A DNA stretch of 40,589 nt, taken from contig JABXHI010000004.1 of assembly GCA_013393415.1 (NCBI GenBank), forward strand, positions 1-40,589. Reading direction: 5' to 3'. The notes below the pieces were generated by a model, which saw only the letters and a program-made list of their open reading frames with translations, did no database searches and had not been told where the DNA came from. This DNA is from Micrococcaceae bacterium (GTDB taxonomy: Bacteria > Actinomycetota > Actinomycetes > Actinomycetales > Micrococcaceae). A program made the translations under genes and the position numbers. This document shows, piece by piece, positions 220 to 40,348 of this stretch (position 1 is its first letter; each line of letters begins with the position of its first letter).

Positions 220-237
220 ACATTCCCAGTGTCCGGC
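220..237 (-). promoter_or_regulatory. Element promoter motif GCCGGACAC (copy N)
   Basis: GCCGGACAC on the minus strand at 237-229. Nine nt later comes T then A (219), a pyrimidine-purine start like the other copies. It would transcribe leftwards into the small ORF at 50-187. Confidence 0.6.
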
Positions 238-252
238 ACAATGGCGCGCCAA

Positions 253-283
253 AGCCCCCGAAAGAGCATGTCTTCCGGGGGCT
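253..283 (-). terminator. Terminator hairpin of the CAP-domain gene
   Basis: AGCCCCCG (253-260) pairs with CGGGGGCT (276-283), giving an 8-bp GC-rich stem just after the stop of the minus-strand gene ending at 300. Only a short T-run (TTT) follows in the direction of transcription. Confidence 0.65.
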
Positions 284-299
284 AGCTCACCTCAGAGTT

Positions 300-2573: not shown

Positions 2574-2633
2574 TTTTCCTAAAACTTCCGGTGAGGTGTA
2601 AAACTGTTTTAACTCTGGCGCGTGCCAGGAGGT

Positions 2634-2651
2634 AGTTTCACTGTGTCCGGC
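2634..2651 (-). promoter_or_regulatory. Element promoter motif GCCGGACAC (copy L)
   Basis: Motif at 2651-2643 on the minus strand, predicted start A at 2633, about 60 nt before the ATG at 2573. This is a leadered transcript, consistent with the clear ribosome site of that gene. The motif plus 12 nt downstream is identical to copy P inside the nuclease gene. Confidence 0.65.
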
Positions 2652-2701
2652 ACACATTGTTTCGTCAGAGTCTCACCACAACAGGTTGCTGTGGTGTTCT
2701 A

Positions 2702-2719
2702 GCTCTTACTGTGTCCGGC
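2702..2719 (-). promoter_or_regulatory. Element promoter motif GCCGGACAC (copy M)
   Basis: Second, upstream copy at 2719-2711, tandem to copy L with 68-bp spacing and the same orientation. The predicted start falls on T (2701), so it may be a weaker promoter or a protein-binding duplicate. Confidence 0.5.
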
Positions 2720-2773
2720 GTCCGAGAAGTTCATGAATTATGGATTGTCAGGACACATGTGACGCCACCCTGT

Positions 2774-2785
2774 TAGGGTCAAAAC
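2774..2785 (+). promoter_or_regulatory. Housekeeping-type -10 for a leaderless gene
   Basis: TAGGGT (2774-2779, matching TANNNT) lies 6 nt before the ATG at 2786 and no Shine-Dalgarno is present, the usual arrangement for a leaderless actinobacterial gene. A convincing -35 was not found. Confidence 0.5.
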
Positions 2786-3421: not shown

Positions 3422-4072
3422 CTAGAGTTGAAATGGCTCAAACTTTCGAGTTTTACGGTCTAAAGGGTTAATGAACTCACTGATCAGCAAGCCAGGAAAC
3501 AGCCTCTCTACGATCTGATAGGAGCTCAGTTCTTCTTTAGGTGGCTGTGCTCCGATCAGATGCTTTTTAGCCGGCACCATCAGCCCGAACGATGCCGCTG
3601 CACCAGTAACAACGATCAGCGTCCAGAAGATAGTTGGGTGATGCAGTGCGAAGCCGGCATACGGCACGGTGGACCCAAAGATTGGCGCATCGGTAACCAC
3701 CGTTTGCACGACCTGGGCTGATGCGATCATCTCGTCGTCGGCCCCGGTGAGTTCTGGCACGATCTGCACCATATCAGGTTGACCATAGTAGTCATCATGA
3801 ATTTCATGCACCGTTGCATAGGTCAGCTCATCGCTGTGATCCGGAAAATACCCGATGGTGGTATTGGCGGCTGGGAGACCATCAGCTGGCGTGGTGATCA
3901 CTGCATCTGCGGTGGAGCCGTATTCGGCTAGCGGCTCCTGGGCGATGCTTTCCAGCTGGCACTGGGACGTGACGAACCACACTGAGACCGCCGCAACCCC
4001 GACCAATGCCAACATCATCAAACCCGAGAGCATCTTGATGGCGAGAGCCCCGCTGAATTTCAACCATTTCAC
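3422..4072 (-). CDS. Two-TM membrane protein, unknown function
   Basis: A 216-aa protein with a TM segment at about 12-35, an extracytoplasmic loop of about 110 residues and a second TM near 148-168, then a basic cytoplasmic tail. It starts with GTG overlapping the stop of the upstream HExxH gene as GTGA, so translation is probably coupled and the products may act together. No known family is recognised. Position beside other secreted and membrane proteins suggests a role in the cell envelope or mating apparatus, but that is only context. Confidence 0.6.
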   Translation of the reverse strand: MKWLKFSGALAIKMLSGLMMLALVGVAAVSVWFVTSQCQLESIAQEPLAEYGSTADAVITTPADGLPAANTTIGYFPDHSDELTYATVHEIHDDYYGQPDMVQIVPELTGADDEMIASAQVVQTVVTDAPIFGSTVPYAGFALHHPTIFWTLIVVTGAAASFGLMVPAKKHLIGAQPPKEELSSYQIVERLFPGLLISEFINPLDRKTRKFEPFQL

Positions 4073-5715
4073 TGCTCAAAGGTCTTGTCGAAGAAGTTGA
4101 ACAGCTTTTCTTTGAGTTCGGGGTTTTTGGCATACGGTGCGTAGTCGTTGCCCTGGAAATTCTCGGGATTCACCAGCCGGTTGTTCACCCCAAGACGCTC
4201 GTGCGCATACATCTCAAAACCTCGGGCAAACTGCTCAGTGGGAGTATTCAAATACCCGCGGCGCTTCGGATCGGACTCTTGTAAAGCGCTGGAGTAGGAG
4301 TTAGATATGGACCGGAACTCATCGGTCAACGAAGCGTTACCCTTGTCAGTCAAATCATAGAAATGAGCCATCTCGTGGACATACGCCTCGGAGGTGCGGA
4401 CATCGACGGCCACCGTGTTGTGCGACGGACTGTAGATACCTTTGGCCCGGTGCTTGCCGAGGTAACGGACACGTAGATCGGGCTGTCGGCCTGATGGGAC
4501 GGGTGGCAGCTTGTCCGAGACTTCTTTGATGGCGTTTTCAAAGTCGGCTGCCTCAGCTGGGTCTACGTCGTTGTCGTACTCGATCTTGGAGAATGATCCT
4601 CCGTTGGCGGCCACGACTTTGGAGTTTTCCATCATGTCTTGGCGGGTCTGGTCCGGGTTTTTCTTGTCATCGAAGGCGGTAGCGATAGAACCACGCTGAT
4701 CTTTGACATATTTTTGCTGCGCTTTGAAGTTGCGTCCAGCCAGCTGCTTGTCTTCTACCGCAATCAGCGCATCGATGGCTGCGGATTTGGCTTGGGCTTC
4801 GTGGTCTAGATGTAGCTGCATCCGGCGACCAGTGACCTCGTTTTTCAGTCGGGTGTACTGCTTGCCAGTGCGGGGGTCGGTGGCAAAGACCTCCATCTGC
4901 TCTTCGCCGTCGTTGGGGTAATCACCCTTGTTCACGAAGCGGATGCCTGTGGCAGGTGCCATCGCTTGTGCGGCCAGAATGTTGTCCCCGGTGAGATTTT
5001 CGATCCGTTTGGCGCCCACTACCGAGCGAAGGTCAGTGTGGGTGATTTGCTGGTCTGCTCGGATGCCGTCACGTGCACTGTGCAGCGTTGTGGCACTCAT
5101 CTTGTTGTTGCCGGCATCAGACACCAGCATCAGTCGTTCAACGTCCTCGCCATCCTCGTTCGTATCGCTGAGCGTGACAAGCCAACCACGATTGGCGTTT
5201 TTGGCATAGGAATACATCAGCTGCGGATCGTCAACGCGCTTGACGTTCGTGGCGCCGGGGAGGTCCTGGAGCAGTTCTTCGGCCTGATCATCGTCGAGCT
5301 TATTGTCTGCCGGGGCGGAAACGGCATGACACAGTCTGCCGGAAATCAGTCGGTGGTCAACATATTTAGCCAGATACCGTCCATCTCGGAGTTCTCCAGC
5401 AGCATCACGGAGCTCTTCAAGGTCATCGCACTTGTAGTAGGACATCACGCTGTCCACAGGTCTGCCACGCAGATCGGCGTTAAAGAAGCGGGTAGGAACA
5501 CCATCGAAGTCGGCGTTGAACTGTTCTTCTATCGCCTCGAAGTCGGCCAAAAACGAGTATTTGATGCTCTGGTCGTCATCGGCAACATCATCTTCAACTG
5601 GATTGGCCACCAGCAGTGTGGTTTCCGCTTCGGAGTGTTCTTTTTCCTGGTACTTGCCGCGCTTATCGCGGTTTATGTTCTGTCGGCGCTGCGCATCTGT
5701 CATCTGAGCTGTCAT
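4069..5715 (-). CDS. HExxH zincin-like metallopeptidase-domain protein
   Basis: A 548-aa soluble protein. The C-terminal part carries HEMAH (residues 447-451) after a hydrophobic strand, with a downstream helix TEQFARGFEMYAHE (about 493-506) that can supply the third zinc ligand, typical of gluzincin-like domains found in large polyvalent or MuF-type plasmid and phage proteins. The first 400 residues are acidic and unrecognised. The ATG at 5715 sits exactly 9 nt after an element promoter motif and no Shine-Dalgarno is visible, so the mRNA should be leaderless. It is followed by the two-TM gene with overlapping stop/start. It could be a protein delivered to recipients, a toxin-like peptidase or a wall protein processor; the catalytic motif is seen, the role is not. 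Confidence 0.65.
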   Translation of the reverse strand: MTAQMTDAQRRQNINRDKRGKYQEKEHSEAETTLLVANPVEDDVADDDQSIKYSFLADFEAIEEQFNADFDGVPTRFFNADLRGRPVDSVMSYYKCDDLEELRDAAGELRDGRYLAKYVDHRLISGRLCHAVSAPADNKLDDDQAEELLQDLPGATNVKRVDDPQLMYSYAKNANRGWLVTLSDTNEDGEDVERLMLVSDAGNNKMSATTLHSARDGIRADQQITHTDLRSVVGAKRIENLTGDNILAAQAMAPATGIRFVNKGDYPNDGEEQMEVFATDPRTGKQYTRLKNEVTGRRMQLHLDHEAQAKSAAIDALIAVEDKQLAGRNFKAQQKYVKDQRGSIATAFDDKKNPDQTRQDMMENSKVVAANGGSFSKIEYDNDVDPAEAADFENAIKEVSDKLPPVPSGRQPDLRVRYLGKHRAKGIYSPSHNTVAVDVRTSEAYVHEMAHFYDLTDKGNASLTDEFRSISNSYSSALQESDPKRRGYLNTPTEQFARGFEMYAHERLGVNNRLVNPENFQGNDYAPYAKNPELKEKLFNFFDKTFEQ

Positions 5716-5733
5716 GCACAGCTAGTGTCCGGG
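5716..5733 (-). promoter_or_regulatory. Element promoter motif CCCGGACAC (copy E)
   Basis: Motif at 5733-5725, then 9 nt, then the ATG at 5715. It lies in the 30-bp gap after the stop of the upstream gene, so the HExxH gene has its own leaderless promoter. Confidence 0.75.
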
Positions 5734-6987: not shown

Positions 6988-7015
6988 TGCTGCCTCCCTT
7001 CAGATGTGGCACTGT

Positions 7016-7033
7016 GTCTCTACAGTGTCCGGC
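7016..7033 (-). promoter_or_regulatory. Element promoter motif GCCGGACAC (copy K)
   Basis: Motif at 7033-7025 between the VirB4-like gene and the anchored secreted protein. The tenth base downstream is A (7015) after C, so the start site fits the common spacing although translation begins later, at a TTG with a ribosome site. Confidence 0.7.
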
Positions 7034-14707: not shown

Positions 14708-15910
14708 GGTGTCCTTCTGCGGGGTCGATGTGTCAGTCTCGCCGGTGGGTTTCTCCGGCGTAGTTTCACTGTGTCCGGCATCGAGGTCTTCGTCCTGATC
14801 GTCAACGACTTCGTCATCTTCCTCTTCGGCTGGAATGAATTCGATCCCGGCATCGATAGCTTTTGGCGACGGCCCAAAGCCTGCATCTTGGGCAGTTGCG
14901 CAGATGTTAGCTAGGGGGCACCAGCCGCACAGGGGGCCTGCTTTGGTCGGGAACGCGGATTCTTCGATGGCGGTGTTGTGAATATCCCAGGCGTCAACAA
15001 GGTCATCTTTGGTTTCTTCCAGCATCTCGTCTGAGACATCAACTTCGACCTCATGCTGGGCTGCGGTGTAGAGCAAGTATGCGCCCACAGGTCGGATACC
15101 TGTCTGGGCTTCTTTGAGCAACGTGTAGGTGCGCATGGCTCGCTCATAGCCACCGATGTACTGGTCGCCCTTCCACTTTCCCGTCTTGTAGTCCATCACC
15201 AGGAGATCATCATTTTCGACTAGGTCAGTGCGGTCAACGGTTCCGGTCACCGGTACACCGGCGATGGTTTCTTCGATCTTTTCCTCAACGCGGTCCACGT
15301 CGATGGTCTTGGGGTCTTCAAGATCAAAGACTCCGCCGGCCAAGTGATTGAGCTTCTGTGTCAGCAAAGCTGTCTTGGCGGCATCGCCGGGAAATGTCTT
15401 GGCAACGACCTTGGAGATTTCCTCTGCTAACGCAACACCGTCACGCTGCTTGCGAGGCAGTTCGTAAAAGCTTTCCAGCGCCTCGTGTGCAAGCCCTCCA
15501 GCTCCGGCTGGGCTGAACGGTGAGTCGTCGAAGGGGATCATTTTCCCAAACGCCCACGATGCAGCACAGTTGTCCAGCAGGCTTGATGCGGTGGAGGGAC
15601 TGAGCTTGAAACGTTGAATCTTGGAGGTCACCAGATCGCGGTCCGTCACGTGCATTTTGTCGTCGCGGAACTCGACGAATTGTGCCATCGCCAAAGCGTC
15701 ATCTTCATAGCTACTGGGAGCATCGGATGGTGGCGTTTCTGTGGTGCTGTCATCAACAGATGCAGTCGGTTGAACAGCTTCAGTTTTTAGATCAGGTGCG
15801 GTGCCGTTGACGGGAGCTGGAATAGCGTCAGCGGGTGCACCTTCGGACGCCTTGTACCCGACGATTAGATCGTCGAACAGGCTGTGGGTTTTCAGAGGGG
15901 TTTGCGTCAT
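14267..15910 (-). CDS. Cas4/AddB/RecB-type PD-(D/E)XK nuclease with Fe-S cysteines
   Basis: A 547-aa protein. Residues about 100-340 show the RecB-family nuclease set: His142 (AHEAL), Asp226 (GTVDR), Asp240 and Lys242 in LLVMDYKTGK, and Tyr residues of the Q/YxxY motif after it. Cys115, Cys328, Cys331 and Cys337 (CGWCPLANIC) match the split 4Fe-4S cluster of Cas4/AddB nucleases. The domain is expected to cut DNA with a metal-dependent exonuclease or endonuclease mechanism. The first 90 and last 150 residues are extra and unrecognised. The ATG at 15910 lies 9 nt after an element promoter copy with no ribosome site, so it is leaderless. Beside the VirB4 operon and the origin candidate, a role in DNA processing for transfer or replication is likely. 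No cas genes are near. Confidence 0.8.
   Translation of the reverse strand: MTQTPLKTHSLFDDLIVGYKASEGAPADAIPAPVNGTAPDLKTEAVQPTASVDDSTTETPPSDAPSSYEDDALAMAQFVEFRDDKMHVTDRDLVTSKIQRFKLSPSTASSLLDNCAASWAFGKMIPFDDSPFSPAGAGGLAHEALESFYELPRKQRDGVALAEEISKVVAKTFPGDAAKTALLTQKLNHLAGGVFDLEDPKTIDVDRVEEKIEETIAGVPVTGTVDRTDLVENDDLLVMDYKTGKWKGDQYIGGYERAMRTYTLLKEAQTGIRPVGAYLLYTAAQHEVEVDVSDEMLEETKDDLVDAWDIHNTAIEESAFPTKAGPLCGWCPLANICATAQDAGFGPSPKAIDAGIEFIPAEEEDDEVVDDQDEDLDAGHSETTPEKPTGETDTSTPQKDTMKTRPLIEELQPWELLTDTDELNPNSWAANSMFRLYSRIDEAIRSAHPDFDRDRQRNLTALTLTDVAEVITAGVNSWTGIDSTPQNGAFTRLSHVADTHIHNVQCDFDDEGEVTAWLDELATELGFATGTVLDLFDQLMPPAVSDE
14762..14779 (-). promoter_or_regulatory. Element promoter motif GCCGGACAC inside the nuclease gene (copy P)
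   Basis: Motif at 14779-14771 within coding sequence for DAGHSETT; predicted start A at 14761. Motif and 12 nt downstream are identical to copy L at 2651. Could drive the C-terminal ORF and the downstream transfer genes. Confidence 0.5.
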
Positions 15911-15928
15911 GCACTACCAGTGTCCGGC
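15911..15928 (-). promoter_or_regulatory. Element promoter motif GCCGGACAC (copy D)
   Basis: Motif at 15928-15920, 9 nt before the ATG at 15910. Likely main promoter of the minus-strand transfer operon. Confidence 0.75.
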
Positions 15929-16764: not shown

Positions 16765-16782
16765 GCCGGACACTGTCAGGGT
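16765..16782 (+). promoter_or_regulatory. Element promoter motif GCCGGACAC (copy C)
   Basis: Motif at 16765-16773, 9 nt before ATG 16783. It decides the start of the replication protein as a leaderless gene. Confidence 0.75.
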
Positions 16783-20091: not shown

Positions 20092-20952
20092 TCACACTGA
20101 ATCGATCCCGTAATGCTCTCGAAGTACCACGATGGACAGTCGTCGGATTGCTTCAACTGCCTCGCGAGCCTCAGCTAGGTTGCGGTAGTTCCCGGCCAGC
20201 TTGATCGCCTTGTAGATACCGTGCTCTGTTCGTGCTCCAGCCTGGGACTCATCCAGCCAGACTCCAGCCGCTATGCCCAGTTGTTGGTCCTTTTGCCCAG
20301 CGTAGTCCACCACGGTATCGCGAAACTCCTGAGATTCTAGGGGCATCAACACAAAGTCTGGCTCGTCATGGTACTCGACGTATGAATGCTCGTGCTCCAT
20401 CGGTGGTGGAGTGTTCTCATGGAATCCAAAGTGCATCCCGTCAATCGTCCTGCCTTGGCGCCGTGCGTCTTTGCGGACCGATGCTCGGGCATTCCACTCA
20501 GCGACCACTTCTGCACGTGTGGGCATCCGATGTAGGTCTTGGGCCATTTCGGATTCGAGGTTGTCGAGCTCTCGGGCGTTGCGGTACATGGATCGCACAC
20601 CGCGGACACCTTTGGTCTCATCTCGCTCAAATTCATCCCGGACATTATTTCGAATCTGAAGCCTTAGCACAGCACGCAACGACACGACCTTGGCGGCTTT
20701 GTCCGGGTTATCACAGTAATACTCCAACAACTGCCAGGCAGCCATGCGGGTTATTTGTATGATGTCATCTTCTTTATGGCGTGCCAGTCCACGTCCAAAG
20801 GCAGTTTGCGCTCCGGCGGCCACCTGTTTCACCCATGGGTCAAATACGACAAGCCACTGCTCGATGGCTTCACGTTGCAGTGTTGCATCCAATGTACAAA
20901 TATCGATGGCAGCTTGCTGAGGGTCAGTGTGATCAAACAGTTCGGTCATCAT
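20092..20952 (-). CDS. Sigma-70-like RNA polymerase factor (element-encoded)
   Basis: A 286-aa soluble protein. Residues about 33-112 read like sigma region 2: an amphipathic helix, then EDDIIQITRMAAWQLLEYY (region 2.2, core binding, about 61-79) and SLRAVLRLQIRNNVRDEFER (regions 2.3-2.4, -10 recognition, about 91-110). LESEMAQDLHRMPTRAEVV (about 132-150) resembles region 3 of group 3 sigma factors. The last 85 residues are helical and could form a diverged region 4 (AIKLAGNYRNLAEAREAV...AIRRL). It is last in the ParA-like/unknown/mIHF-like operon (2-nt gap to the mIHF gene), which itself lacks the SCCGGACAC motif seen before most other genes. I infer it recognises that motif. Region 4 is weak, so a sigma-related regulator without -35 recognition is also possible, which would suit the absence of a conserved -35. 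Confidence 0.65.
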   Translation of the reverse strand: MMTELFDHTDPQQAAIDICTLDATLQREAIEQWLVVFDPWVKQVAAGAQTAFGRGLARHKEDDIIQITRMAAWQLLEYYCDNPDKAAKVVSLRAVLRLQIRNNVRDEFERDETKGVRGVRSMYRNARELDNLESEMAQDLHRMPTRAEVVAEWNARASVRKDARRQGRTIDGMHFGFHENTPPPMEHEHSYVEYHDEPDFVLMPLESQEFRDTVVDYAGQKDQQLGIAAGVWLDESQAGARTEHGIYKAIKLAGNYRNLAEAREAVEAIRRLSIVVLREHYGIDSV

Positions 20953-20954
20953 TT

Positions 20955-21362
20955 TCAGTTGTATGCCTTTCCATACGTGAACGGGAAGCCGTCATGAAAA
21001 GCGACTTTCCGTGTATCGTGCACGGCGTCGAGGAGGGCTTCAAAACGTCGGCCAGATGCCCACTGGGAAACGACCCAGCCGACAGTAATCCGCTTGGGAG
21101 TCTGGCGAATGTGGGGATACAGGGTTTTGAACGCATCATTGACGATGGTCCGGGCTTTGTCGTATCCAATGTGAGGGTCACACGAGATGATTTGCACCAG
21201 AGATTGGTTTCTCAGCTGAGGGTCCTGGGCGGCAGCACGAAGGTAGTCCGTCCAAGGGGTGCGACCCTCCATGATAGCTACTCGTAGTGCGGTGCGCTTA
21301 CGTTCAGCTTCAGCTTTGCCGGCCATCAGGTGGGCGTTGGAGCCAGGTTGAGCTAAAGCCAT
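20955..21362 (-). CDS. mIHF-like actinobacterial integration host factor homologue
   Basis: A 135-aa basic protein. Residues about 15-115 follow the actinobacterial IHF (mIHF/sIHF) pattern: an Ala/Arg-rich helix (AEAERKRTALRVAIMEG), a linker helix with DPQLRNQSLVQIIS, a helix-two-turns-helix DNA motif DPHIGYDKARTIVNDA where the chromosomal family has LPGVGKxxA, and the final ITVGWVVSQ where it has RRVxGLGxxQ. mIHF proteins bend DNA and shape nucleoids and replication; a plasmid copy may organise the origin or promoters, or act as a stealth nucleoid protein. The ATG overlaps the end of the preceding gene by 10 nt and the sigma gene follows after 2 nt, so expression is coupled. The C-terminal 20 residues are extra. 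Confidence 0.75.
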   Translation of the reverse strand: MALAQPGSNAHLMAGKAEAERKRTALRVAIMEGRTPWTDYLRAAAQDPQLRNQSLVQIISCDPHIGYDKARTIVNDAFKTLYPHIRQTPKRITVGWVVSQWASGRRFEALLDAVHDTRKVAFHDGFPFTYGKAYN

Positions 21363-22339
21363 ATCTGACCGCCTTGTGACATGCGGATGTTCTCTAGTTC
21401 ATTGCCGTCCATGGCCTCTGCTGCGCTGGGCACCGGGTTCAGTGCGGTGACTACAGATGACCGGTGGTGTCGCACGTCGGTCATTCCGTGGTCCAACATC
21501 AGCTGCGGTAGCGTCTCTGGGTCTTTGCACTTCAGTTGCAATGCAGCATTGCGAATCTTTGTTCCACGTCCATCGGAAAGATCGCCAATGGAATCATAGA
21601 TGAGACGCTGTGCCGCCTGGTGAACTTTTGTCACCATATGTCGTTGCGGGTCAACGTTGTCGAAGACCTCTTGATCGTGTATCTGTGACTCCAAAGCTCG
21701 CATCAGCGATTGGTCTGGGTTGTGAATAGCCGTAGAGGCTAGGTGCTCTATATCCTGTGACGACACCCAGCGGTCAGACCACATGCCGATGGTTGCATAT
21801 ATCTCTGATCGCATGTTGTGGTGCGCTAGTTCTAACGCTGAGATGAGCTGACGTTCCATATCTAGCAAGATGTTCCACAGGGCTTCATGGCCCTTTTTTA
21901 GGACGCTGTTATGTGCAGCCTTGGTGGAGATTACCGTCGGCGAATCAACAATGAGTCCACCGTTGCCCATGACCTGTGTCCCCACAGAGCCAACGCTTTG
22001 TGCAGATATTTGCCACGACAGATTTTCCACGAACCCTCCCGGTCCAACAGCTTGTGCTTGCACCTGATGTGGCCCACCCCCTAAGAGCACTTGCTGCTCG
22101 TGTAGATATTGGAGTCGTACCGGCATCAAATAGCGCTCTTGGCCATCGGCGAGTTCAGATGAGTGTTCGGGTTGAGACTTTTTCCCCACCGCATCTCCAA
22201 GATCAGCCCAACCAAACATTGGCGAGATCATCATCGGAACGGTGTCAAGGTCTTTGACTAGGCGCTGTGCACGCACGGCAGACAGTTGACGGCAGTAAGA
22301 GGCCAGGTGTGGGTTGGCCACCCATTGTGAAATGGTCAC
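21353..22339 (-). CDS. Unknown protein between ParA-like and mIHF-like genes
   Basis: A 328-aa soluble protein with no TM segment. It starts at GTG 2 nt after the stop of the ParA-like gene, so it is translationally coupled. The central part (about 145-260) is strongly helical (KKGHEALWNILLDMERQLISALELAHHNMRSE...), and residues about 255-300 could form a DNA-binding HTH (GTKIRNAALQLKCKDPETLPQLMLDHGMTD). By place it could be the ParB-like or adaptor partner of the ATPase, but no ParB motif is seen. Confidence 0.5.
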   Translation of the reverse strand: MTISQWVANPHLASYCRQLSAVRAQRLVKDLDTVPMMISPMFGWADLGDAVGKKSQPEHSSELADGQERYLMPVRLQYLHEQQVLLGGGPHQVQAQAVGPGGFVENLSWQISAQSVGSVGTQVMGNGGLIVDSPTVISTKAAHNSVLKKGHEALWNILLDMERQLISALELAHHNMRSEIYATIGMWSDRWVSSQDIEHLASTAIHNPDQSLMRALESQIHDQEVFDNVDPQRHMVTKVHQAAQRLIYDSIGDLSDGRGTKIRNAALQLKCKDPETLPQLMLDHGMTDVRHHRSSVVTALNPVPSAAEAMDGNELENIRMSQGGQIWL

Positions 22340-22341: not shown

Positions 22342-24186
22342 TTACCCACGTCCAAACAGTCGCGAGAACAAGCTGGGTTTCTTTTCCGCAACTTCTTTCT
22401 CATCGGGCGCTAGGGTGTCGGTATCGAATTGCTGATCGAACTTTTCGTACCCGGTTGCCCGGAATAATGCACGGTAGACCACTTGGTCAATTTGCCGGTT
22501 GTTGAGATCGGGTTCCCCAGCGATCATCCTCGACCACACCTGCTGGTCGTTGTTGATGATGCCCACATAGACGCCGATGCGTCCGTGAATCATTTTCTGC
22601 AACTTCTCATCAATTCGACGGGTCGCTGCTCGAAGCGGAGTCACGTTGTTCATCGCCACTAAGATACGACGACGGTCAATATCCTGCTGGACCATCACTG
22701 CAATGCGGTCCACGAGGTCTTCAAGTGCAGAAGTGGAGTCATCTGCCAGACCTAAGAAGAATGCTCCGTTGTCTCGGACCTCTGGGATGATAACGCTACC
22801 GGTGAGTTTGAATTCGTCGGTGGTCTTCATGATCTGACTATCAAATATCACCATGTCGAAGCGTTCGCGCACATCGGCGATGACCTGAATGTAGTGCTGG
22901 GCTGTGACACTGTTGACATCGAGGTCATCGGAGCCTGGGGCTAGAACGACCGAGAGTTTATCGGGCACCGGGGTGGCGTTGTCTGGACGGAGTTCATCAA
23001 TGACATCGGAGGTGATGACGACTTCTTCCAGCGAGGCGTCACCCAAGGCGAAGTCAGAGATGGTTGGCACCTTGTAGCCGCGGGTATCCATCTTCAAGAA
23101 TTTCGGGACGTTCGCCTGTCCGAGGTCACCATCAATCAGTACCGTGCGGTAGCCGTGAGCTGCGGAGGTGATGGCCAGCTGTCGGGCAAACGTTGTCTTG
23201 CCGATGCCACCTTTGGCTCCGGAAACAAAAATCATGGGTGCTTGACGAGTTCTGACACGAGCCTTGCGGATACCACGCTGACCATATTCGACTGGTCGCT
23301 TTTGAACCGGCTGTTGTGGCTGCTGCGGCTGAGCAGGTGGCGGTGTCGGAGACTGAGTTCGACGATTTGGTCGGCGAGGTGGCTGCGATACGGGTGATGC
23401 AGGTGGCTGGAACTGATCTGCTGATGGCCGCTGAGCAGGACGCGGTACAACGGGTGGGGGTGGTTCAGGGTTCAGACCGTTTGCATAGACATCATCTTCT
23501 TGCGGTTCGCCACGATAGTCCACTGGTTGGTCTGGCATCGGGGGCTGAGCATGAGGGTCGTATGCTGGCTGGGCTGTAACAGGCTCAGTCGGTTGATGCT
23601 GTTCTCGCTGCTGAGCTAGTCGTTGACGGTGAGCTGCGGTGGCATCCCAGACATCATCAACTGGCTCTTGCGTACTGGTGTCCCCAGGTGCTGAGTATTG
23701 CTGTTGAGGTGAATCTTGGGCTGATTGGCCATCGAAGGCAGGTAGGTCTGGCAATGCTGGAACCGGTGCCTGCTCTTGCTCGATTTCAGTCTCTTGGTCA
23801 TCCTCTGGCCACGAGACTTCCGCCCACTGCTGGTCCACAGGTGCAAGGGCTGCTTCCTCTGCAAGTTCGGACAAAGTGAACGGCATGGGTACAGCCATGA
23901 TGTTGTCGTGGATGATGTGTTCAGCATTCTCATTGGCGGACAGCACCGAGACATCGGGGCCACCATCCATCGAGGCAACGGCGGTAATCCATTTGTCTAG
24001 CCCCTGGGTGTTGGAGTCGGCGACCACAATAGGAAACGACCCTGACGAGAACGCACCCTGGATAGCTGCGACTGCATCGGCCACCGTGTCACCGGTGACC
24101 ACTTCATATCCGGCATCGGTCAACACTGGCACTAGGTCTGGGACTTCTATGATCCCAACGCGACGATCTTCAATGTTTTGGCTCAT
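22342..24186 (-). CDS. ParA/MinD superfamily ATPase, CpaE/TadZ-like
   Basis: A 614-aa protein. The N-terminus (1-115) looks like a degenerate receiver domain (VGIIEVPDLVPVLTDAG... with IVVADS), followed by a Pro/Gln-rich linker (about 130-305) and a P-loop ATPase with the deviant Walker A KGGIGKTT (about 325-332; Lys330), then DGDLGQANVPKFL and VIFDSQIM as later motifs. This layout matches CpaE/TadZ and plasmid partition ATPases that position cargo at membranes or nucleoids. It leads the operon that ends in the sigma-like gene. A bare TANNNT-like box just upstream of the ATG and no ribosome site suggest leaderless translation from an ordinary promoter. Partition is the likeliest role; spatial regulation of the transfer apparatus is possible. 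Confidence 0.75.
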   Translation of the reverse strand: MSQNIEDRRVGIIEVPDLVPVLTDAGYEVVTGDTVADAVAAIQGAFSSGSFPIVVADSNTQGLDKWITAVASMDGGPDVSVLSANENAEHIIHDNIMAVPMPFTLSELAEEAALAPVDQQWAEVSWPEDDQETEIEQEQAPVPALPDLPAFDGQSAQDSPQQQYSAPGDTSTQEPVDDVWDATAAHRQRLAQQREQHQPTEPVTAQPAYDPHAQPPMPDQPVDYRGEPQEDDVYANGLNPEPPPPVVPRPAQRPSADQFQPPASPVSQPPRRPNRRTQSPTPPPAQPQQPQQPVQKRPVEYGQRGIRKARVRTRQAPMIFVSGAKGGIGKTTFARQLAITSAAHGYRTVLIDGDLGQANVPKFLKMDTRGYKVPTISDFALGDASLEEVVITSDVIDELRPDNATPVPDKLSVVLAPGSDDLDVNSVTAQHYIQVIADVRERFDMVIFDSQIMKTTDEFKLTGSVIIPEVRDNGAFFLGLADDSTSALEDLVDRIAVMVQQDIDRRRILVAMNNVTPLRAATRRIDEKLQKMIHGRIGVYVGIINNDQQVWSRMIAGEPDLNNRQIDQVVYRALFRATGYEKFDQQFDTDTLAPDEKEVAEKKPSLFSRLFGRG

Positions 24187-24194
24187 ACTATGTA

Positions 24195-24449
24195 TTACCC
24201 ACCGCCACGATGAAACGTCTTCCCGGTCAAATACGAGCCACGTGTTGAAACAGCCCTGGAGCCGCTGATTGGTACAGGATACCGAGTGCCGAGCTTCGTC
24301 CCAGATGCAGTAGTGGGGTTGGCCTCGTGTTCAGATATAGCATTAGCTTCTTTCACCTCCACGGTGACATTGCCACACATTGAACCACGTACTGAAAACA
24401 GTGTGCGCTGTGCAAAATCACTGCCTGTCCCCAACGTTGACCTCACCAT
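24195..24449 (-). CDS. Small hypothetical protein at the head of the partition operon
   Basis: An 84-aa frame ending 8 nt before the ParA-like gene, in the same orientation. Rich in Gly/Ser/Thr, no TM or known domain. The ATG lies within the spacer of a 10-bp inverted repeat, an operator-like place. Whether it is translated is uncertain; it may be a leader or a chance frame. Confidence 0.35.
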   Translation of the reverse strand: MVRSTLGTGSDFAQRTLFSVRGSMCGNVTVEVKEANAISEHEANPTTASGTKLGTRYPVPISGSRAVSTRGSYLTGKTFHRGGG

Positions 24450-26436: not shown

Positions 26437-26454
26437 CCCGGACACTGACAGTCT
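26437..26454 (+). promoter_or_regulatory. Orphan element promoter motif CCCGGACAC (copy O)
   Basis: Motif at 26437-26445; predicted start G at 26455 after T. No start codon or convincing ORF follows, so it would make an untranslated RNA across 26455 to about 27060, or a long leader for the coupling-protein gene. Confidence 0.55.
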
Positions 26455-27009: not shown

Positions 27010-27064
27010 CATTTTTGACCCGCGTGGATTCGGGACTTCCCGTAAAAACGGTCATTTTTGACCC
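27010..27064 (+). repeat. 12-bp direct repeat CATTTTTGACCC before the coupling-protein gene
   Basis: Copies at 27010-27021 and 27053-27064, 43 bp apart; the second abuts promoter copy B. Between them CCGT-AAAA-ACGG followed by TCATTTTT (27040-27059) is a small terminator-like hairpin. Confidence 0.5.
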
Positions 27065-27081
27065 CCGGACACTCTCTGGGC
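27064..27081 (+). promoter_or_regulatory. Element promoter motif CCCGGACAC (copy B)
   Basis: Motif at 27064-27072, 9 nt before the ATG at 27082; decides that start and makes the gene leaderless. Confidence 0.75.
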
Positions 27082-29490: not shown

Positions 29491-31295
29491 GTCAGTCATC
29501 AACCGGATTTCACCTACCCGATCTCGATACCGTCACCGAAGATGAGACAACCGATCTCCCCGACTTCGACCCGGACACCGGCGAGATATTGGATGATGCA
29601 GGCGTTGAGTTACCAGATTTTGGTGCACCAGAAACCCAGGACCACCAACCGGCTCTGCCCGACTTTCCATCCCCAGCTCCAACAGCGCTACCCAGCTTTA
29701 ACGATACAGCTGATCCAACGCATACAAGGGACACCAGTGACGCCACGCAGGGTGCCCCAACCATCGAACAGATAGGCTTCCGCAATGCCGATGATTCTGC
29801 TGTACCCACCACCGGTTACCAGGCACGATTCGACCCACGAGTCGCAGACCTTCCCGACACTCGACCCCAACTTGGCGAGCAGGCGTTGAAGAACCACGGC
29901 GCGCATACCCATCGTGCTGATCCGTTTTATGACCGACTGTGGCAGTTCGGTTCACAGGCGGCTTGGGCATCGTATGAGGGTGTCGTCAAACACCAGAAGG
30001 ACGGTACGACGTTGATGCTGCCATCCGGTGTGATGAAACGGGATAAGGCTATCGAGATGGTTAAATATGGTGACTACCGTTCACAGCGGATCGCTATTTT
30101 GTCAGCCCTAGATTCCTGGGGCACGGTGACTGCTGAGCAAATGGTGGCTTTGACCGGTTACCGCAACGTATTGCATCCCGATCACGATGTGACCATGTCA
30201 CTGTTCTCGTCATCGCTGGTAGATATTGGCAGACTGCAAAACTCTATGTTGGCCGTCAAAGAGGACCCCCGCTCCACAGTCTTTCGACAGCGCGCACCAC
30301 GCGGACGGATACGTTCAATTGCCAAACGTGCATGGACTTCAGCCGAGTATTTGCAGGTCGATGCCGGGGTGAACTTTGCACCGTCGTTGGGCTTCATGGA
30401 CCGCCACAACATCATGGCGACCGAATTCTCCCTACGATGCGCCGAGTCACACCCTGATGTCAACATGATCTTGGGTGAGAAGTGGTCTTCTGGTGATTCG
30501 CTGCTACCGCATACCCGTCGAAAGATTGGTTTTCACCGCACCTCGGAACAGCACCCGGTCCGCGGTGATTCCACCATCATCATGCGTAACGGGCTGCGTG
30601 TTGTCATCGAGATGACTTCTGGCCACTCCGCCAGCATTTACAAAAAGCTCAACCGTTGGGCACAGTTTTTGACCCGTCATTCACTAGCCGAGTCAGGTGT
30701 GGTTGTGCTGTTTGTGATGGCATCATCCAAATACTCTGATGGTCGAGATTATGAGACATCGGTATCGACGTTTCGGTCGTGGATGAAGTATGTTCTGCGT
30801 AAATTCCCGTCACGTGGACAGGACTCTGCTGCCGCTCGGATGGGCCTTGCACGATGGACCGATATGTTTCCGGCGAAGCACGAACTGAGCGAAGACTTTT
30901 ACTCTCTATCCGCCGAATACCACGACGTAGGCTGGGACAAGAAGCCCATTGATGCTTTCGACTTCCAGTTCAACGACCCCGATGTCGCATCGGCTCCGAT
31001 TGCGATGGCACCGGTCCTGGCTGCAACACCGCACTGGTGGCGCCGGGGCGATCAGACCCCGATGATCGGTCTACCCTCAATACGAGCCAACGAAGCACCG
31101 CTGACCGATGAAGATGAGCACCTAACCACCACCGGAGCAGTTGATGAGGTCAATCCCCCGTCGCGTCTTCGAGCTGTTGGGGCGCGACGCAAGTTCAACT
31201 CCGCCGACGATGTGACCGGCCCCGAGGTGGTCGATGAGACCGATGATCAGGCAGCACACGATGGAAGAACGAAAGCAGACGATGATGAGCAGTAA
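29487..31295 (+). CDS. Replication-relaxation family protein (relaxase-like candidate)
   Basis: A 602-aa protein starting at GTG overlapping the coupling-protein stop. Residues 1-130 are acidic and disordered with repeated LPDF motifs. At about 195-265 a winged-helix-like domain (SQRIAILSALDSWGTVTAEQMVALTGY) resembles the N-terminus of replication-relaxation proteins, and about 365-420 has an alpha/beta core LRVVIEMTSGHSASIYKKLNRW with Glu and Lys spaced as in nuclease-like folds. Replication-relaxation proteins are found beside coupling ATPases in actinobacterial mobile elements and are thought to process DNA for replication or transfer. No classical HUH or MobA motif is seen, so it is the best relaxase candidate here but not proven. 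Confidence 0.55.
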   Translation: MSQSSTGFHLPDLDTVTEDETTDLPDFDPDTGEILDDAGVELPDFGAPETQDHQPALPDFPSPAPTALPSFNDTADPTHTRDTSDATQGAPTIEQIGFRNADDSAVPTTGYQARFDPRVADLPDTRPQLGEQALKNHGAHTHRADPFYDRLWQFGSQAAWASYEGVVKHQKDGTTLMLPSGVMKRDKAIEMVKYGDYRSQRIAILSALDSWGTVTAEQMVALTGYRNVLHPDHDVTMSLFSSSLVDIGRLQNSMLAVKEDPRSTVFRQRAPRGRIRSIAKRAWTSAEYLQVDAGVNFAPSLGFMDRHNIMATEFSLRCAESHPDVNMILGEKWSSGDSLLPHTRRKIGFHRTSEQHPVRGDSTIIMRNGLRVVIEMTSGHSASIYKKLNRWAQFLTRHSLAESGVVVLFVMASSKYSDGRDYETSVSTFRSWMKYVLRKFPSRGQDSAAARMGLARWTDMFPAKHELSEDFYSLSAEYHDVGWDKKPIDAFDFQFNDPDVASAPIAMAPVLAATPHWWRRGDQTPMIGLPSIRANEAPLTDEDEHLTTTGAVDEVNPPSRLRAVGARRKFNSADDVTGPEVVDETDDQAAHDGRTKADDDEQ

Positions 31296-31563
31296 CGACC
31301 CTTCGCCAGACGACCGTTTAGAAAATATGTTGGCACGCTACGGTGTCAAACCAAATGGCACTTCTCCGACTCCGGTGCCAGCTGAAGATCAGCTATCTCA
31401 AGATGTCCAACCATTGTCTCGGCGGGAAATAAAAAACCGGCAGAGCATAGATCGCAACGAAGATATGGAAGACCAGAGTTTCTGGAATCGTGCGAAACGG
31501 TATGCTCTGCCGGCGGTCTTAGTGCTCGGTGTGTTGCTGAGCTTGTTCACCAACCTGTTTTAG
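31282..31563 (+). CDS. Small C-terminally anchored membrane protein
   Basis: A 93-aa protein if started at ATG 31282; ATG at 31261 gives 100 aa. Hydrophilic, basic and charged (DDRLENMLARYGVKP...) with one C-terminal TM segment (about the last 20 residues) ending SLFTNLF, a tail-anchor pattern. Overlaps the previous gene and converges on the helicase gene with a 4-bp overlap. Likely part of the coupling-protein transcript; function unknown. Confidence 0.55.
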   Translation: MMSSNDPSPDDRLENMLARYGVKPNGTSPTPVPAEDQLSQDVQPLSRREIKNRQSIDRNEDMEDQSFWNRAKRYALPAVLVLGVLLSLFTNLF

Positions 31564-34500: not shown

Positions 34501-35009
34501 TGGATGCCTGAGATTTTCATCGGGGCGGCTTTGCCTAGCGCGTCTTTGACCTTGGTCAGACGGGTGAACAGGTCTTCGTTCGATGATTGGCCGGCCTGTC
34601 GGAGGACACGCTGAGCAGTTTCGGTAGCAGCTTCACCACACACGTAGTTGCTGAATCCTTTGAGTACTGCCACCTGGGGTTCACGACCGTAGATCGCTTC
34701 GGTCGCCTTCGCGACAGCCGGAGCGTCTTTGGTGATGATCTGGCGCTGCAAGGCCAGGCCCTCGGTAGTGATCAGCGTACGCTGACGGTGCTCCACTGCT
34801 GCGCGGAAGGCGGGGGTAAGGTAGGCAATCGATTTACCAGTGCCAGTTGGTGCCTGCGCTGCCAGGTGCTTTCCTTCAGCTGCAAAAGCTCTTTCGATCC
34901 AGCGGGATAGGGTTGCTTGCGGTGCACGCGGCTTGGCATCGGGTAGGCCGGTGGTCTCGATGACCGCCTGGGTTAATAAGTCTTGTTGAGTTACATTCTG
35001 ATCTTCCAT
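31560..35009 (-). CDS. DinG/XPD-like superfamily 2 helicase, interrupted by an intein
   Basis: A 1149-aa precursor; 763 aa after removal of a 386-residue intein. Walker A APTGTGKS (53-60), motif II DEAH (274-277) and motif VI QAAGRLIR / SANDRGMVAVLDPR identify a DinG/XPD-type 5'-3' helicase. Four cysteines between motifs Ia and II (NYVCGE, ECPVP, GQCSN, NACAG) fit the Fe-S cluster of this family. The intein lies between Arg and Ser of motif VI, so helicase activity requires splicing. The start at 35009 (MEDQNV) is exactly 9 nt after promoter copy F and no ribosome site is seen. It likely helps replication or removes R-loops on the element. It is convergent with the coupling-protein unit. Confidence 0.85.
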   Translation of the reverse strand: MEDQNVTQQDLLTQAVIETTGLPDAKPRAPQATLSRWIERAFAAEGKHLAAQAPTGTGKSIAYLTPAFRAAVEHRQRTLITTEGLALQRQIITKDAPAVAKATEAIYGREPQVAVLKGFSNYVCGEAATETAQRVLRQAGQSSNEDLFTRLTKVKDALGKAAPMKISGIQSTVGTLVDLLTWALMHSTDAINGQRDECPVPMDREWSLVSVPSGQCSNDEDPYNACAGHQARMAAAAADIVVTNHTLVAIQATKNIPVLVDSKTLGAFDHIIIDEAHALPSVVRSNGAVEISEPRITRALNRIIDSDDPDAQPSPMVKTAGAQVKELLPFVTQAINTYLGDAKTDEEVWIEEDEEFAELDALGVRLASLKEAVKDDGMLSQDIRMRHVSSIESLIDDIDLVSTTIRDTARWAIRQSMPSGGVVASFAASPIDVSSNLFHRLWTRDPMAHRIEDSDKAQQQLEEALQSLEDDQDITDVDANPERVRSTVVAVSATLSDDFPYEAGLRCDVVDVETPFAEAYDQSAIYIPYPEDEDLDVIANDRWGKLRMDTKLHHDWAKEHMLELIFANRGAAMVICATSTAAKAYAQAIEDDPHLPFNVYTQWDRRGRAQAIEDWKNDVSSVIVGTRSLMTGVDASGVTNTLVVIDRPARAPMNPVDKARCAALIEAGVNRWAADTRIYVQDAAVLLEQAAGRLIRCFDLETEILTTDGWKSYNEIKVGDTVYGIPPQMLKARGTRTATSNGAPSIEQHQVKAIKVNDEPEPLLRFKNRVADIVATPDHTMFVQPQEIRPINTRADGSKEYYVSKSPDYMKTRFDSLPHRFQLPLAGRVSRGQSKLPRDWFTLLGLVISDGYISKYKNSIALSQSTAKQAVVDEIDELLGRTDIKFNRYVQEKNGTKMSIRGGKEYTRNGDIITWVINGHDSSRIRDLLVLGQRRRKSEVKSHRSVQYSAYRDVWNWLDAKKVIPRWIINTASRPNLLALFRGLMLGDGTYSWFREGKSGTFYTGTKLNADRFQEICALVGYRSNIVNRSETQWEVRFAARGSVNTTRKDIAEHGIGKTWCVNTELGSVVARRNGRTFIAGNSANDRGMVAVLDPRLRPGSPISYNAATRKMYLEAVDVYGHDMDHLDDALDWLEERAEVNAEQVAQMA
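31764..32921 (-). mobile_element. Intein with LAGLIDADG endonuclease in the DinG-like helicase
   Basis: 386 codons from Cys697 (CFDLETEILT) to Asn1082 (FIAGN), followed by Ser+1. Block A CFDLETEILTTDGW, block B TPDHTMFV, LAGLIDADG motifs LLGLVISDGYIS and LFRGLMLGDGTYS, block F TWCVNTELGS, block G RTFIAGN|S. Standard class 1 residues except that Gly replaces the usual His before Asn, a known natural variant. The coding sequence is visibly more A/T-rich than the helicase, suggesting recent transfer. Confidence 0.95.
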
Positions 35010-35027
35010 ACCAATACCGTGTCCGGC
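35010..35027 (-). promoter_or_regulatory. Element promoter motif GCCGGACAC (copy F)
   Basis: Motif at 35027-35019, 9 nt before the helicase ATG at 35009, just after the stop of the small zinc-ribbon gene. Confidence 0.75.
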
Positions 35028-35266: not shown

Positions 35267-35284
35267 AGCTCAACCGTGTCCGGC
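35267..35284 (-). promoter_or_regulatory. Element promoter motif GCCGGACAC (copy G)
   Basis: Motif at 35284-35276, 9 nt before the ATG at 35266. It is divergent from copy A 38 bp away, so the two promoters share a very short control region. Confidence 0.75.
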
Positions 35285-35321: not shown

Positions 35322-35339
35322 CCCGGACACTACCTGTGC
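35322..35339 (+). promoter_or_regulatory. Element promoter motif CCCGGACAC (copy A)
   Basis: Motif at 35322-35330, 9 nt before the ATG at 35340; its 9-nt spacer is nearly the same as that of copy E (5716-5724). Confidence 0.75.
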
Positions 35340-37236: not shown

Positions 37237-37244
37237 GTCAAGCT

Positions 37245-37889: not shown

Positions 37890-37907
37890 ACCTACCTAGT
37901 GTCCGGC
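37890..37907 (-). promoter_or_regulatory. Element promoter motif GCCGGACAC (copy H)
   Basis: Motif at 37907-37899, 9 nt before the GTG at 37889. The only case with GTG at the predicted start. Confidence 0.75.
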
Positions 37908-37957
37908 ACAGTTCACGTGCATCACTGGTGTCCCCAGAATAGGCTAATGTCAGCAGC

Positions 37958-38380: not shown

Positions 38381-38413
38381 ACCGCAACACCGCACAGCGC
38401 GCCGTCCACAGCC

Positions 38414-39466
38414 TTACTGATCGTCTGGGACAGTGGCGGCGGTACACAGTTGCCTAATCTGCCGGTATTGGGCTGCCACAGGCCCGTGTAGCGCCATGAC
38501 GGATGGAACACCGGTCAACGCTGCGGCTTCCTCCACGCTGATCCTGCGGACAGTCCGGGGCACATCGTCAGAGGTTGCCGGCACTCCACCGGATTTCAGG
38601 TGGGCAAAGTAGTCATCGTGCCATGAGGTGTCCCGGTCACCGTCTATGAATGCCTGATCCACGAATGGTCCCCGTCCGCCATCCATATTGGCTGTCAGAG
38701 TGCGCGATGGTCGTTGCATATCCAGCGGTCGGCCTGGTCCATTGACGAAGATGCCCTGGTACGGGTTCCGTGCACGACCGGTGATCGGACGTTTTGAAGG
38801 AATCACTCGGCAGCCGTAGTGGGTGTCATTTCCAGGGGTGCCAAACTGTGGCAGATTGGCAAAGACTTCGGCCACCGTCATGTGCTGACCATCAGACGCT
38901 GGCATCTCAATAGCTTCGCCGTCCAATGTGCCGATGATAATCGCCCGTTTCCGGTGCTGCGGTGTGCCATAATCTGCTGCATCAACAATGTGAGTTGCCA
39001 CGGTATATCCTGCTGTTTCTGCACGAGCAATGAACGTCTCGTAGACCTCTGAGAACCGCGCACCGGTGGCAAGTGTCGAGACATTTTCCATCACGAAGGC
39101 GCGGGGTTTTACCGCTGCCACAACATCCATGAAGACATGCACGTGGGCAGAACGAGGGTCATTTGGGTCTTGTGCACCAGCTCGGGAGAATCCTTGGCAG
39201 GGTGGACCACCGGCAATGACATCAACCTGTGGAAAGCCCAGGGTGCCGTTTTCCACATCTGCTTGCAGTTCTAGAACATCGCTGTAATGCTGCGGTGCTT
39301 CGTCCTGGAAGTGGGTCAGCCAGTTGTGGTGCGTAGCGGCAGCGTGCTTATCCGCTTCGGCAGTAGCCAAGGTCCTGTAGCCATGTTGGGCAAAGCCATA
39401 ATCAAGCCCTCCTAGGCCGGAGTACAGGGAGATCATCGTCTTGGGGGATTCAGTATGCGGGGTCAT
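38414..39466 (-). CDS. dcm: Orphan C5-cytosine DNA methyltransferase
   Basis: A 350-aa m5C methyltransferase: motif I SLYSGLGGLDYGFAQ with AdoMet-binding glycines near the N-terminus, motif IV GGPPCQGFS (catalytic Cys90), motif VI FVMENV, and the C-terminal QRP/N-type motifs (about 225-330) around the variable target region. It methylates cytosine C5. Leaderless ATG 9 nt after copy I. No cognate endonuclease gene is visible. With the beta-class enzyme it gives the element two modification systems without restriction. The dcm symbol denotes family only. Confidence 0.85.
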   Translation of the reverse strand: MTPHTESPKTMISLYSGLGGLDYGFAQHGYRTLATAEADKHAAATHHNWLTHFQDEAPQHYSDVLELQADVENGTLGFPQVDVIAGGPPCQGFSRAGAQDPNDPRSAHVHVFMDVVAAVKPRAFVMENVSTLATGARFSEVYETFIARAETAGYTVATHIVDAADYGTPQHRKRAIIIGTLDGEAIEMPASDGQHMTVAEVFANLPQFGTPGNDTHYGCRVIPSKRPITGRARNPYQGIFVNGPGRPLDMQRPSRTLTANMDGGRGPFVDQAFIDGDRDTSWHDDYFAHLKSGGVPATSDDVPRTVRRISVEEAAALTGVPSVMALHGPVAAQYRQIRQLCTAATVPDDQ

Positions 39467-39484
39467 ACTTTATCCGTGTCCGGC
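39467..39484 (-). promoter_or_regulatory. Element promoter motif GCCGGACAC (copy I)
   Basis: Motif at 39484-39476, 9 nt before the ATG at 39466. It overlaps the end of the upstream gene. Confidence 0.75.
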
Positions 39485-40330
39485 GATGTACCTCCGATAA
39501 TCATCGCTTCCCGAATCGTTGTCAGGTATCTCGATGTGCACCGTGTGGTTGACCGTGGGGTCATCAGATGACTGGCTGATCAGTCGGGCATCCTCAACAA
39601 AGGTACCGTCATCAAGTCGCAGTGCAATGGTGACGCTCTCGTACTTCCCTTCGCGGGGTTCTTTGGTTAGAGCACTGACAAAGTCGTCATGGTCCACTGC
39701 ATAGTGGCCATCAGAGCTGTCTCGAAGTTGAGTCGTGTCACCGTAGGTTGAAGCGATCTGCTCATCGACTGATCGAATTGCTTCATCGTTGCGATCCGGA
39801 ATGTTTCCCGCATCGTGCTTCAGCTGTTCGTCAGAGAGTTTGACGTACTCATGGGCACCAAATAATCCCACTGCCGCCAGCATGATAGAGAGGATGAGGG
39901 TCGGCATCAGTTGGTAGCTGAGCTGGTATTTTGCGGGAACATAAGAGCCATGTTTCATGAGCGATCTTCTCCGTGCTTCAAATCCCTCTTGCCGAATCAG
40001 CCAAATAGCTTCGCCGACCGTAGATATTCTGGCTCCGCTCAGCAACCTTTTGTGGTTAGGGTCTAGTGTCAGGGCGTTGTCAAAAAGTTCCTGAGCGTGT
40101 TTGTCTGGCAGCTCTGTGCGATCCTCTTGGCGATCCAATGCTTTGAGCAACAGGCGGTCACTGCGTTGAATAGCTCTGTTTCTACGGATGATCCAACGCT
40201 GACTGAAATGTAGAAATGCCAGTGCTGTTGCTATCAATACCACGAAGGCGACCAGCCAACCCAACAATGTCGCCGAGCCAGTGCTGGGAACCTGTTGTGG
40301 CTCGATATAGAGTTCAGGGATTTCGATCAT
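39470..40330 (-). CDS. Two-TM membrane protein, unknown function
   Basis: A 286-aa protein started at 40330 (MIEIPELY), 9 nt after promoter copy J; the frame could extend to 40381 but that runs through the promoter. TM segments near residues 17-42 and 155-178 enclose a basic cytoplasmic region, and the C-terminal 105 residues should face outside and look like a small beta-rich domain. No known family. It lies upstream of the m5C gene with only 3 bp between, yet that gene has its own promoter. Confidence 0.55.
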   Translation of the reverse strand: MIEIPELYIEPQQVPSTGSATLLGWLVAFVVLIATALAFLHFSQRWIIRRNRAIQRSDRLLLKALDRQEDRTELPDKHAQELFDNALTLDPNHKRLLSGARISTVGEAIWLIRQEGFEARRRSLMKHGSYVPAKYQLSYQLMPTLILSIMLAAVGLFGAHEYVKLSDEQLKHDAGNIPDRNDEAIRSVDEQIASTYGDTTQLRDSSDGHYAVDHDDFVSALTKEPREGKYESVTIALRLDDGTFVEDARLISQSSDDPTVNHTVHIEIPDNDSGSDDYRRYIAGHG

Positions 40331-40348
40331 GTCCCAGCAGTGTCCGGC
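40331..40348 (-). promoter_or_regulatory. Element promoter motif GCCGGACAC (copy J)
   Basis: Motif at 40348-40340, 9 nt before the ATG at 40330; decides that start. Confidence 0.75.

Follow-up and report, generated by a model that had tools for sequence, protein, structure and literature searches.

A candidate element-wide leaderless promoter and a sigma-like gene in a 202-kb element of a Micrococcaceae bacterium

Contig JABXHI010000004.1 of a Micrococcaceae bacterium (assembly GCA_013393415.1) is 40,589 nt long and is analysed here in full as the window. Its genes include those for an AAA_10 ATPase with homing-endonuclease parts, which we take to be VirB4-like, a PD-(D/E)XK nuclease, a ParA-like ATPase, a DEAD helicase and methylases. 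Among them lie copies of the motif SCCGGACAC, many preceding a start codon at one fixed distance, and a gene for a sigma-like protein (20092..20952, minus strand). We describe the motif, the 202-kb element of which the window is one piece, and the grounds for regarding the motif as the core of a leaderless promoter that the sigma-like protein may read.

The motif in the window and in the element

Ten copies lie exactly 9 nt before an ATG or GTG, as the first-pass annotation of the window had stated, and the predicted transcription start (+1) of each is the first base of that codon. On the plus strand these are GCCGGACAC at 16765..16773 (ATG 16783, a 1058-amino acid (aa) gene) and CCCGGACAC at 27064..27072 (ATG 27082, an 802-aa gene) and 35322..35330 (ATG 35340, a DNA methylase). 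On the minus strand GCCGGACAC occurs at 40340..40348 (ATG 40330), 39476..39484 (ATG 39466, a C5 methylase), 37899..37907 (GTG 37889), 35276..35284 (ATG 35266), 35019..35027 (ATG 35009, the helicase) and 15920..15928 (ATG 15910, the PD-(D/E)XK nuclease), and CCCGGACAC at 5725..5733 (ATG 5715, a protein with a shared N-terminal tag described below).

The first-pass count of 16 copies was one short. The recount gives 17, the overlooked copy (CCCGGACAC, 29570..29578, plus strand) lying within open reading frame (ORF) 29487-31295, probably by chance. The tally of the tenth base in copies without a start codon (six: A four times, T and G once each) likewise grows to seven, with A in five; the single T and G stand. 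The minus-strand GCCGGACAC at 7025..7033 looks leadered, its +1 A at 7015 being followed by GAAGGGAGG and a TTG at 6987. Two more minus-strand copies of GCCGGACAC stand in tandem, one at 2711..2719 with no start codon at +1, upstream of a CAP-domain gene, and one at 2643..2651 with an ATG about 60 nt downstream. The GCCGGACAC at 14771..14779 (minus strand), within ORF 14267-15910, may be an internal promoter or chance; that at 229..237 (minus strand) has a +1 A close to the window edge, and the CCCGGACAC at 26437..26445 (plus strand), with G as tenth base, is uncertain.

Chance levels were obtained by first-order Markov simulation of the window (1000 runs). The simulated mean was 1.06 SCCGGACAC (maximum 7), and for SCCGGACAC-N9-RTG, present ten times in the window, the mean was 0.037 and the maximum 2. 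The window is the entire contig C34 of a 3.14-Mb assembly of 92 contigs (G000), which holds 59 copies of SCCGGACAC-N9-RTG against 3 for a reversed-pattern control. They fall in contig C1 from 86.5 kb on (24), the end of C12 (5), C23 (16) and C34 (10), with 4 elsewhere. The first-pass reading depended on the motif not being equally common before host chromosomal genes, and indeed only these 4 of the 59 lie in the 2.9 Mb outside the element.

The element as recognized here consists of four pieces, C34, C23 and parts of C1 and C12, which sum to 202,013 bp; their order is not established and more pieces may exist. It holds 101 of the 173 SCCGGACAC copies of the assembly. Among its genes are those for DNA polymerase III alpha, thymidylate synthase, a SecA-like protein, methylases, an integrase, WhiB and YqaJ. 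The motif-rich part of C1 starts beside a gene for an excisionase-like helix-turn-helix protein (HTH_17 family match), and that of C12 adjoins a tyrosine integrase gene (family match). When about 500 bp per edge were compared, a 27-bp sequence was found common to both edges (C1 86280 and C12 40743) in att-like orientation, and the two copies are probable attachment sites. As far as names can be read from the ORFs, the flanking genes would be FKBP, pafB-like and tatC-like at the C1 edge and pafA-like at the C12 edge.

No 8-mer with 15 or more copies in the element exceeds its expectation as strongly as CCGGACAC (116 copies, 9.0 expected). When 6- to 8-mers were scanned over distances 0-25 upstream of ATG, parts of CCGGACAC led in this register both in the element and in the comparison contig of Enteractinococcus helveticum (NZ_LXEY01000008.1, 84,506 bp, treated as contig C8 of genome G140). 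G140 and the window's genome belong to one genus, taken from this relative to be Enteractinococcus. At distance 9 stand 63 of the 116 element copies (2.2 expected, P 8e-68) and 25 of the 42 E. helveticum copies (0.8 expected). The motif is found at the start of 62 of the 221 called element ORFs. A spreading repeat was ruled out as its origin, the flanks of the copies being unrelated.

The 53 reciprocal best gene pairs between the element and the E. helveticum contig carry the motif in 25 cases here and 22 there, 22 being common to both. Identity of the 8-mer within those 22 carries no weight, because the pairs were picked by it; what informs is the agreement in presence (22/22 and 22/25) with flanks only about one-third identical. 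In two of the 22 the proteins are just 32% and 39% identical, and these pairs may be paralogous. One of the three mismatched pairs is that of the WhiB gene, where the spacing in E. helveticum is 8. The E. helveticum partner of the 1058-aa gene (78% identity) has it before its start at equal spacing.

Upstream of -20 the element's copies share no fixed block, in agreement with the first-pass failure to see a common -35. A scan for a -35 at variable spacing (-60 to -20) was also set aside, since only G-rich 5-mers and parts of a second repeat (CTGGTGT, 8 versus 0.76) stood out. This repeat, GGGGACACCAGT, occurs in the window at 37927-37934 (minus strand), 29728 (plus strand), 23684 (minus strand) and other places. 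Its core, GGGACACC, has 38 copies in the element against 8.2 expected. With the E. helveticum contig included, 17 of 35 fuller copies are intergenic by the ORF calls, some of them immediately upstream of the promoter motif.

Predicted leaderless and leadered starts

Base composition around the motif was sampled in ten contig stretches from five genomes, where 106 copies precede ATG or GTG and 81 do not. The pyrimidine-purine start pattern noted earlier recurs in this sample: C or T stands before the start codon in 106/106 of the former, and +1 is A or G in 89% of the latter. Leaders were assessed with the GCCGGACAC copies of the element's own stretches and the E. helveticum contig, 104 in all. 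Of the 44 without a start codon at +1, 41 have A or G there, and 15 are followed within 100 nt by a Shine-Dalgarno sequence, a start and at least 40 codons; the same was seen at 82/2000 random places and 1/60 start-codon copies. The purine at +1 and the frequent Shine-Dalgarno sequences of these copies make it most likely that the motif marks transcription starts. Leaderless genes, and leadered genes with a conventional ribosome site, would then both use a single signal, and this combination fits a transcription start rather than a translation signal. The exact distance to the start codon could also be that of a translation signal in the leader, but with the 44 copies just described against it we give this explanation very little credence.

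Given the scarcity of the motif before host genes and the resemblance of the remaining copies to leadered promoters, a dedicated promoter with transcription starting on the first base of the start codon, as first proposed, still appears the best reading of the sequence. In five annotated plasmid stretches, compared by eye, the annotated coding sequence starts at the predicted leaderless start in 43 of 51 cases, and 3 of the 8 disagreeing annotations start 9 nt upstream, at an ATG inside the motif. Three tandem motif copies, 56-60 nt apart, lie at and past the end of the WhiB gene in both species (C23:8846-8967 here and 47402-47519 of the E. helveticum contig).

The sigma-like gene and its relatives

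The sigma-like gene (286 aa), proposed as the source of the motif reader, belongs to a minus-strand operon, here called the par-sigma operon. By family match and operon comparison its first gene is that of the ParA-like ATPase (22342..24186), followed by a 328-aa gene (21353..22339, operon comparison), a 135-aa gene (20955..21362, kept in E. helveticum and in Arthrobacter-type plasmids) and 20092..20952. Upstream, at 24193..24225 (minus strand), is a possible separate promoter, with CGGGAAGAC at -39 and GGTAATA at -13, and without CCGGACAC. Both blocks are common to E. helveticum, which is weak evidence as only two sequences, 68% identical overall, are compared. A sigma-70-like promoter scan before the operon gave 2 weak matches against 0.6 expected and was not used.

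Because the 20092 protein itself matches no Pfam family up to an expectation value (E) of 10, we infer the label 'sigma-like' from other signals. These are weak but consistent, and the predicted fold best matches sigma factors, including the region 2 fold of the sigma-70 family, so that the gene probably encodes a divergent sigma factor, in keeping with its first-pass description. Sigma70_r3 (region 3, G-R-x-P-T) is matched, with E up to 1 allowed, by 22 of the 34 sigma-like family members (best 0.0018) and not by the window protein. Around regions 2.4-3 part of the window protein is nearest to the FliA/WhiG family and to SigB/F, with scores below the cut-offs. In Arthrobacter-type homologues the C-terminal helix-turn-helix is of ordinary sequence and reads GVSRSTAR or DVSRSTAR, then YIRKIKEYA or like; the Enteractinococcus proteins have a different segment with an inserted loop in its place. 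Since the model still has two helices there, that this C-terminus has lost DNA reading is something we can only infer.

Other proteins of the element have sigma features. A 161-aa sigma paralogue with regions 2-3 only is encoded under the motif at C1:141556-142041, and a 387-aa protein with sigma region 2 and the N-terminal tag, also under the motif, at C23:19495-20658. The latter, or the WhiB protein (C23:8956-9294) acting with a host sigma factor, might read the promoter instead. For the 387-aa protein speak a Sigma70_r2 match of 24.4 bits against a cut-off of 24 (21.4, below the cut-off, in another search), a sigma70-ECF match at E 0.00013 and the motif at spacing 9 before its own gene. It has no homologue at E 0.001 in the E. 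helveticum genome despite 24 motif copies there, and was therefore ruled out as the main reader. WhiB proteins exert their effect through sigma region 4. In the element TCCGGACAC precedes the WhiB gene at spacing 9; the gene is also conserved in E. helveticum, and a WhiB gene lies inside the par-sigma operon of two Curtobacterium plasmids. WhiB proteins are not known, though, to take the place of a sigma factor. We regard a reader of either kind as unlikely, and prefer the 20092 protein.

Its homologues (E up to 0.001) were found in 9 of 395 genomes of the family, together with the motif family in five (G000, G140, G115, G317 and G322). Among 72,556 plasmid records, 8 carry a homologue of the sigma-like protein (ACHL_RS22105) of the Pseudarthrobacter chlorophenolicus A6 plasmid pACHL01 (Pseudarthrobacter, Paenarthrobacter, Arthrobacter and Curtobacterium), and the distant homologues lie in par operons on Arthrobacter-type and Curtobacterium megaplasmids. 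On pACHL01 there is also a 990-aa protein (L185:27249-30221) in which an SF2-type helicase, read from the sequence, is joined to a SigA-like sigma factor.

As the first-pass annotation had suggested doing, the motif was counted in related plasmids, where related motifs stand at equal spacing. In Micrococcaceae plasmids the variant is CCGYACACAT. A scan of the family for CCGYACACAT-N7-ATG has three sigma-bearing genomes at its top (72, 68 and 58), with controls at 0-1 per genome. CCGNNCAC-Nd-ATG was counted in G322, G115 and stretches of seven of the eight homologue plasmids (all but CP018784.1). At distance 9 there were 87 in G322 (with 29 more at distance 8), 22 in 100 kb of pACHL01 and, in 50 kb each, 16 in CP053545, 8 in CP099467, 9 in CP126255 and 6 in CP126274, a second stretch of which had 1. 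Counts at distance 0 are also high (pACHL01 21, CP053545 21, G115 22), because CCGCACACATG itself contains ATG.

The Micrococcaceae plasmids have a second block, CGGNGAG, at -38 to -32. Its G-37 and A-33 are present together in the start-codon promoters of G322 (63/72), G115 (23/24), pACHL01 (18/19), CP053545 (15/16), CP099467 (12/12) and CP061722 (4/4); in the window's element (6/64), E. helveticum (1/25) and G289 (0/10) the pair is no more frequent than in neighbouring registers. This second block, about 20 nt upstream in a sigma-like layout, bears on two more explanations. If the motif were an operator or activator site near the start codon, the host main sigma factor could be in use, and there is a weak likeness to a sigma-A box, with A at -11 and T at -7 in 59%. 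The window's element, however, has no shared -35 block, the +1 register is exact, and the purine rule holds without a start codon; together with the relatives' layout, these points make such a site improbable. The one-block promoter without a -35 in the window's lineage would also suit a phage-type single-subunit RNA polymerase. Against it, the relatives' promoters have two blocks, and no such polymerase appears in the Pfam lists, which show the top 25 of 90 and of 56 families and cover 178 of the 202 listed ORFs, with six that cross stretch borders left out; we rate it as scarcely probable.

Several observations weigh against the reading by a divergent sigma factor. The sigma identification draws on weak scores and one moderate model, and the tally of Sigma70_r3 matches admits any E up to 1. 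CCGYACACAT-N7-ATG also occurs in G287 (25), G035 (13), G105 (8), G037 (7), G185 (7), G038 (5) and G337 (5), where a profile search gave no sigma homologue at E below 0.02; the best match among the seven comes from G185 and is a remnant broken across two reading frames. G289 and G309 carry the CCGGACAC form and no sigma homologue was found in them, while in four genomes of genus g4 with a homologue no motif was found. CP061722 is not outstanding (4 at distance 9 versus 5 at distance 0 and 4 at distance 4), and the Curtobacterium variant CCGCGCAC is thin, with only 5/9 and 2/6 copies.

Motif clusters without a homologue may mostly reflect decay or incomplete assembly; G073, which has genes for an integrase and an excisionase, resembles a remnant. 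In G287, CGGNGAG was not seen by eye at 11 motif copies on contig C19, and that genome may rely on another reader. A search for a sigma gene on C19 found no Pfam sigma domain in the 34 of its 71 ORFs that it covered. Megaplasmids of Bifidobacterium have a related AAA_10 ATPase and no sigma match; they were dismissed as further carriers, as a 50-kb stretch of a B. longum plasmid and another of pMP7017 showed no peak of the motif. Other strong patterns near ATG in pMP7017 are maybe its CRISPR repeats.

A proposed transcription programme

On this evidence we think it likely that SCCGGACAC, 9 nt before the start, is the core of an element-wide leaderless promoter read by an element-encoded divergent sigma factor with host polymerase. 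The par-sigma operon would be expressed first, from its own promoter without CCGGACAC. The sigma factor would then direct host polymerase to the 62 motif ORFs and to the leadered genes, activating a large part of the element, including DNA-processing, methylation, helicase and surface genes, and leaving host promoters alone. In this scheme the Arthrobacter-type promoter has two parts, CGGNGAG near -35 and (T/G)CCG(C/T)ACACAT, whereas recognition in Enteractinococcus would depend solely on positions -19 to -7, because there the -35 part is missing and the C-terminal helix-turn-helix of the sigma-like protein is altered. With less assurance, though still inclining towards it, we suggest a family of actinobacterial megaplasmids and integrated elements with its own transcription programme. 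In it a new par-operon sigma family would read a private leaderless promoter that drifts with the sigma factor (CCGGACAC, CCGYACACAT, perhaps CCGCGCAC) at constant spacing, and one lineage would have lost the -35 together with the matching helix-turn-helix.

Phage sigma factors with their own promoters are known, such as SPO1 gp28 and T4 gp55, and the proposal resembles them in that a mobile element brings its own divergent sigma factor and puts matching promoters before its genes. It differs in concerning a plasmid or integrated element that carries genes for partition and replication, in promoters that fix +1 on the start codon, and in that the pACHL01 homologue has no match in a phage collection at E 0.01. 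A phage origin was discarded, since the 1058-aa protein lacked a match there as well. Extended -10 promoters start without a -35, their specificity shifted to bases upstream of -12; the proposed promoter would be similar in both respects, but it lacks the sequence TGnTATAAT and its suggested reader is an alternative sigma factor. FliA/WhiG-type promoters have TAAA at -35 and GCCGATAA. Neither is found in the motif logo, and the likeness, called weak from the start, is just that; the 20092 protein scores far below the family cut-offs. The usual actinobacterial leaderless promoter is the TANNNT -10 of the main sigma factor, unlike CCGGACAC at -17 to -10. At -12 to -7 TANNNT is absent, the motif itself placing CAC at -12 to -10, and for that reason a count of TANNNT is of little weight. 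Leaderless genes of Actinobacteria are themselves known (PMC3898074, PMC4633059), and as in those genes the transcript here is predicted to start on the start codon. In the literature searched, which lay outside most subscription journals and all bioRxiv preprints, we found no description of the promoter or of the sigma family. Each part is known (phage sigma factors, leaderless genes, extended -10 promoters), and the same searches turned up no leaderless sigma regulon spanning a plasmid or an integrated element.

If the proposal is true, a large mobile element runs dozens of genes on a private promoter outside the host sigma factors and marks its own start codons in the DNA itself, and its relatives offer a natural series of sigma factor and promoter changing together, including loss of -35 recognition. 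Practical uses would be exact gene starts on poorly annotated megaplasmids and the recognition, in draft genomes, of such elements and of the contigs that belong to them; the promoter would also be a candidate orthogonal system for leaderless expression in Actinobacteria.

Some further features accompany the motif genes. An N-terminal tag (DGKYTTKSHSEADV or like) is common to thirteen motif-driven proteins (4069-5715 in the window and 12 others), whose C-terminal parts differ; its counterpart in Arthrobacter-type plasmids is VPxGxPTGGQFAAxxHAEP, and it is possibly a sorting or assembly tag. LAGLIDADG homing-endonuclease domains lie inside the AAA_10 ATPase (7052-11539) and the helicase (31560-35009) and are probably inteins. 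At 40464-40580 (minus strand) an Rfam match to the actinobacterial small RNA Ms_IGR-7 (48.3 bits) lies in a stretch 85% identical to E. helveticum.
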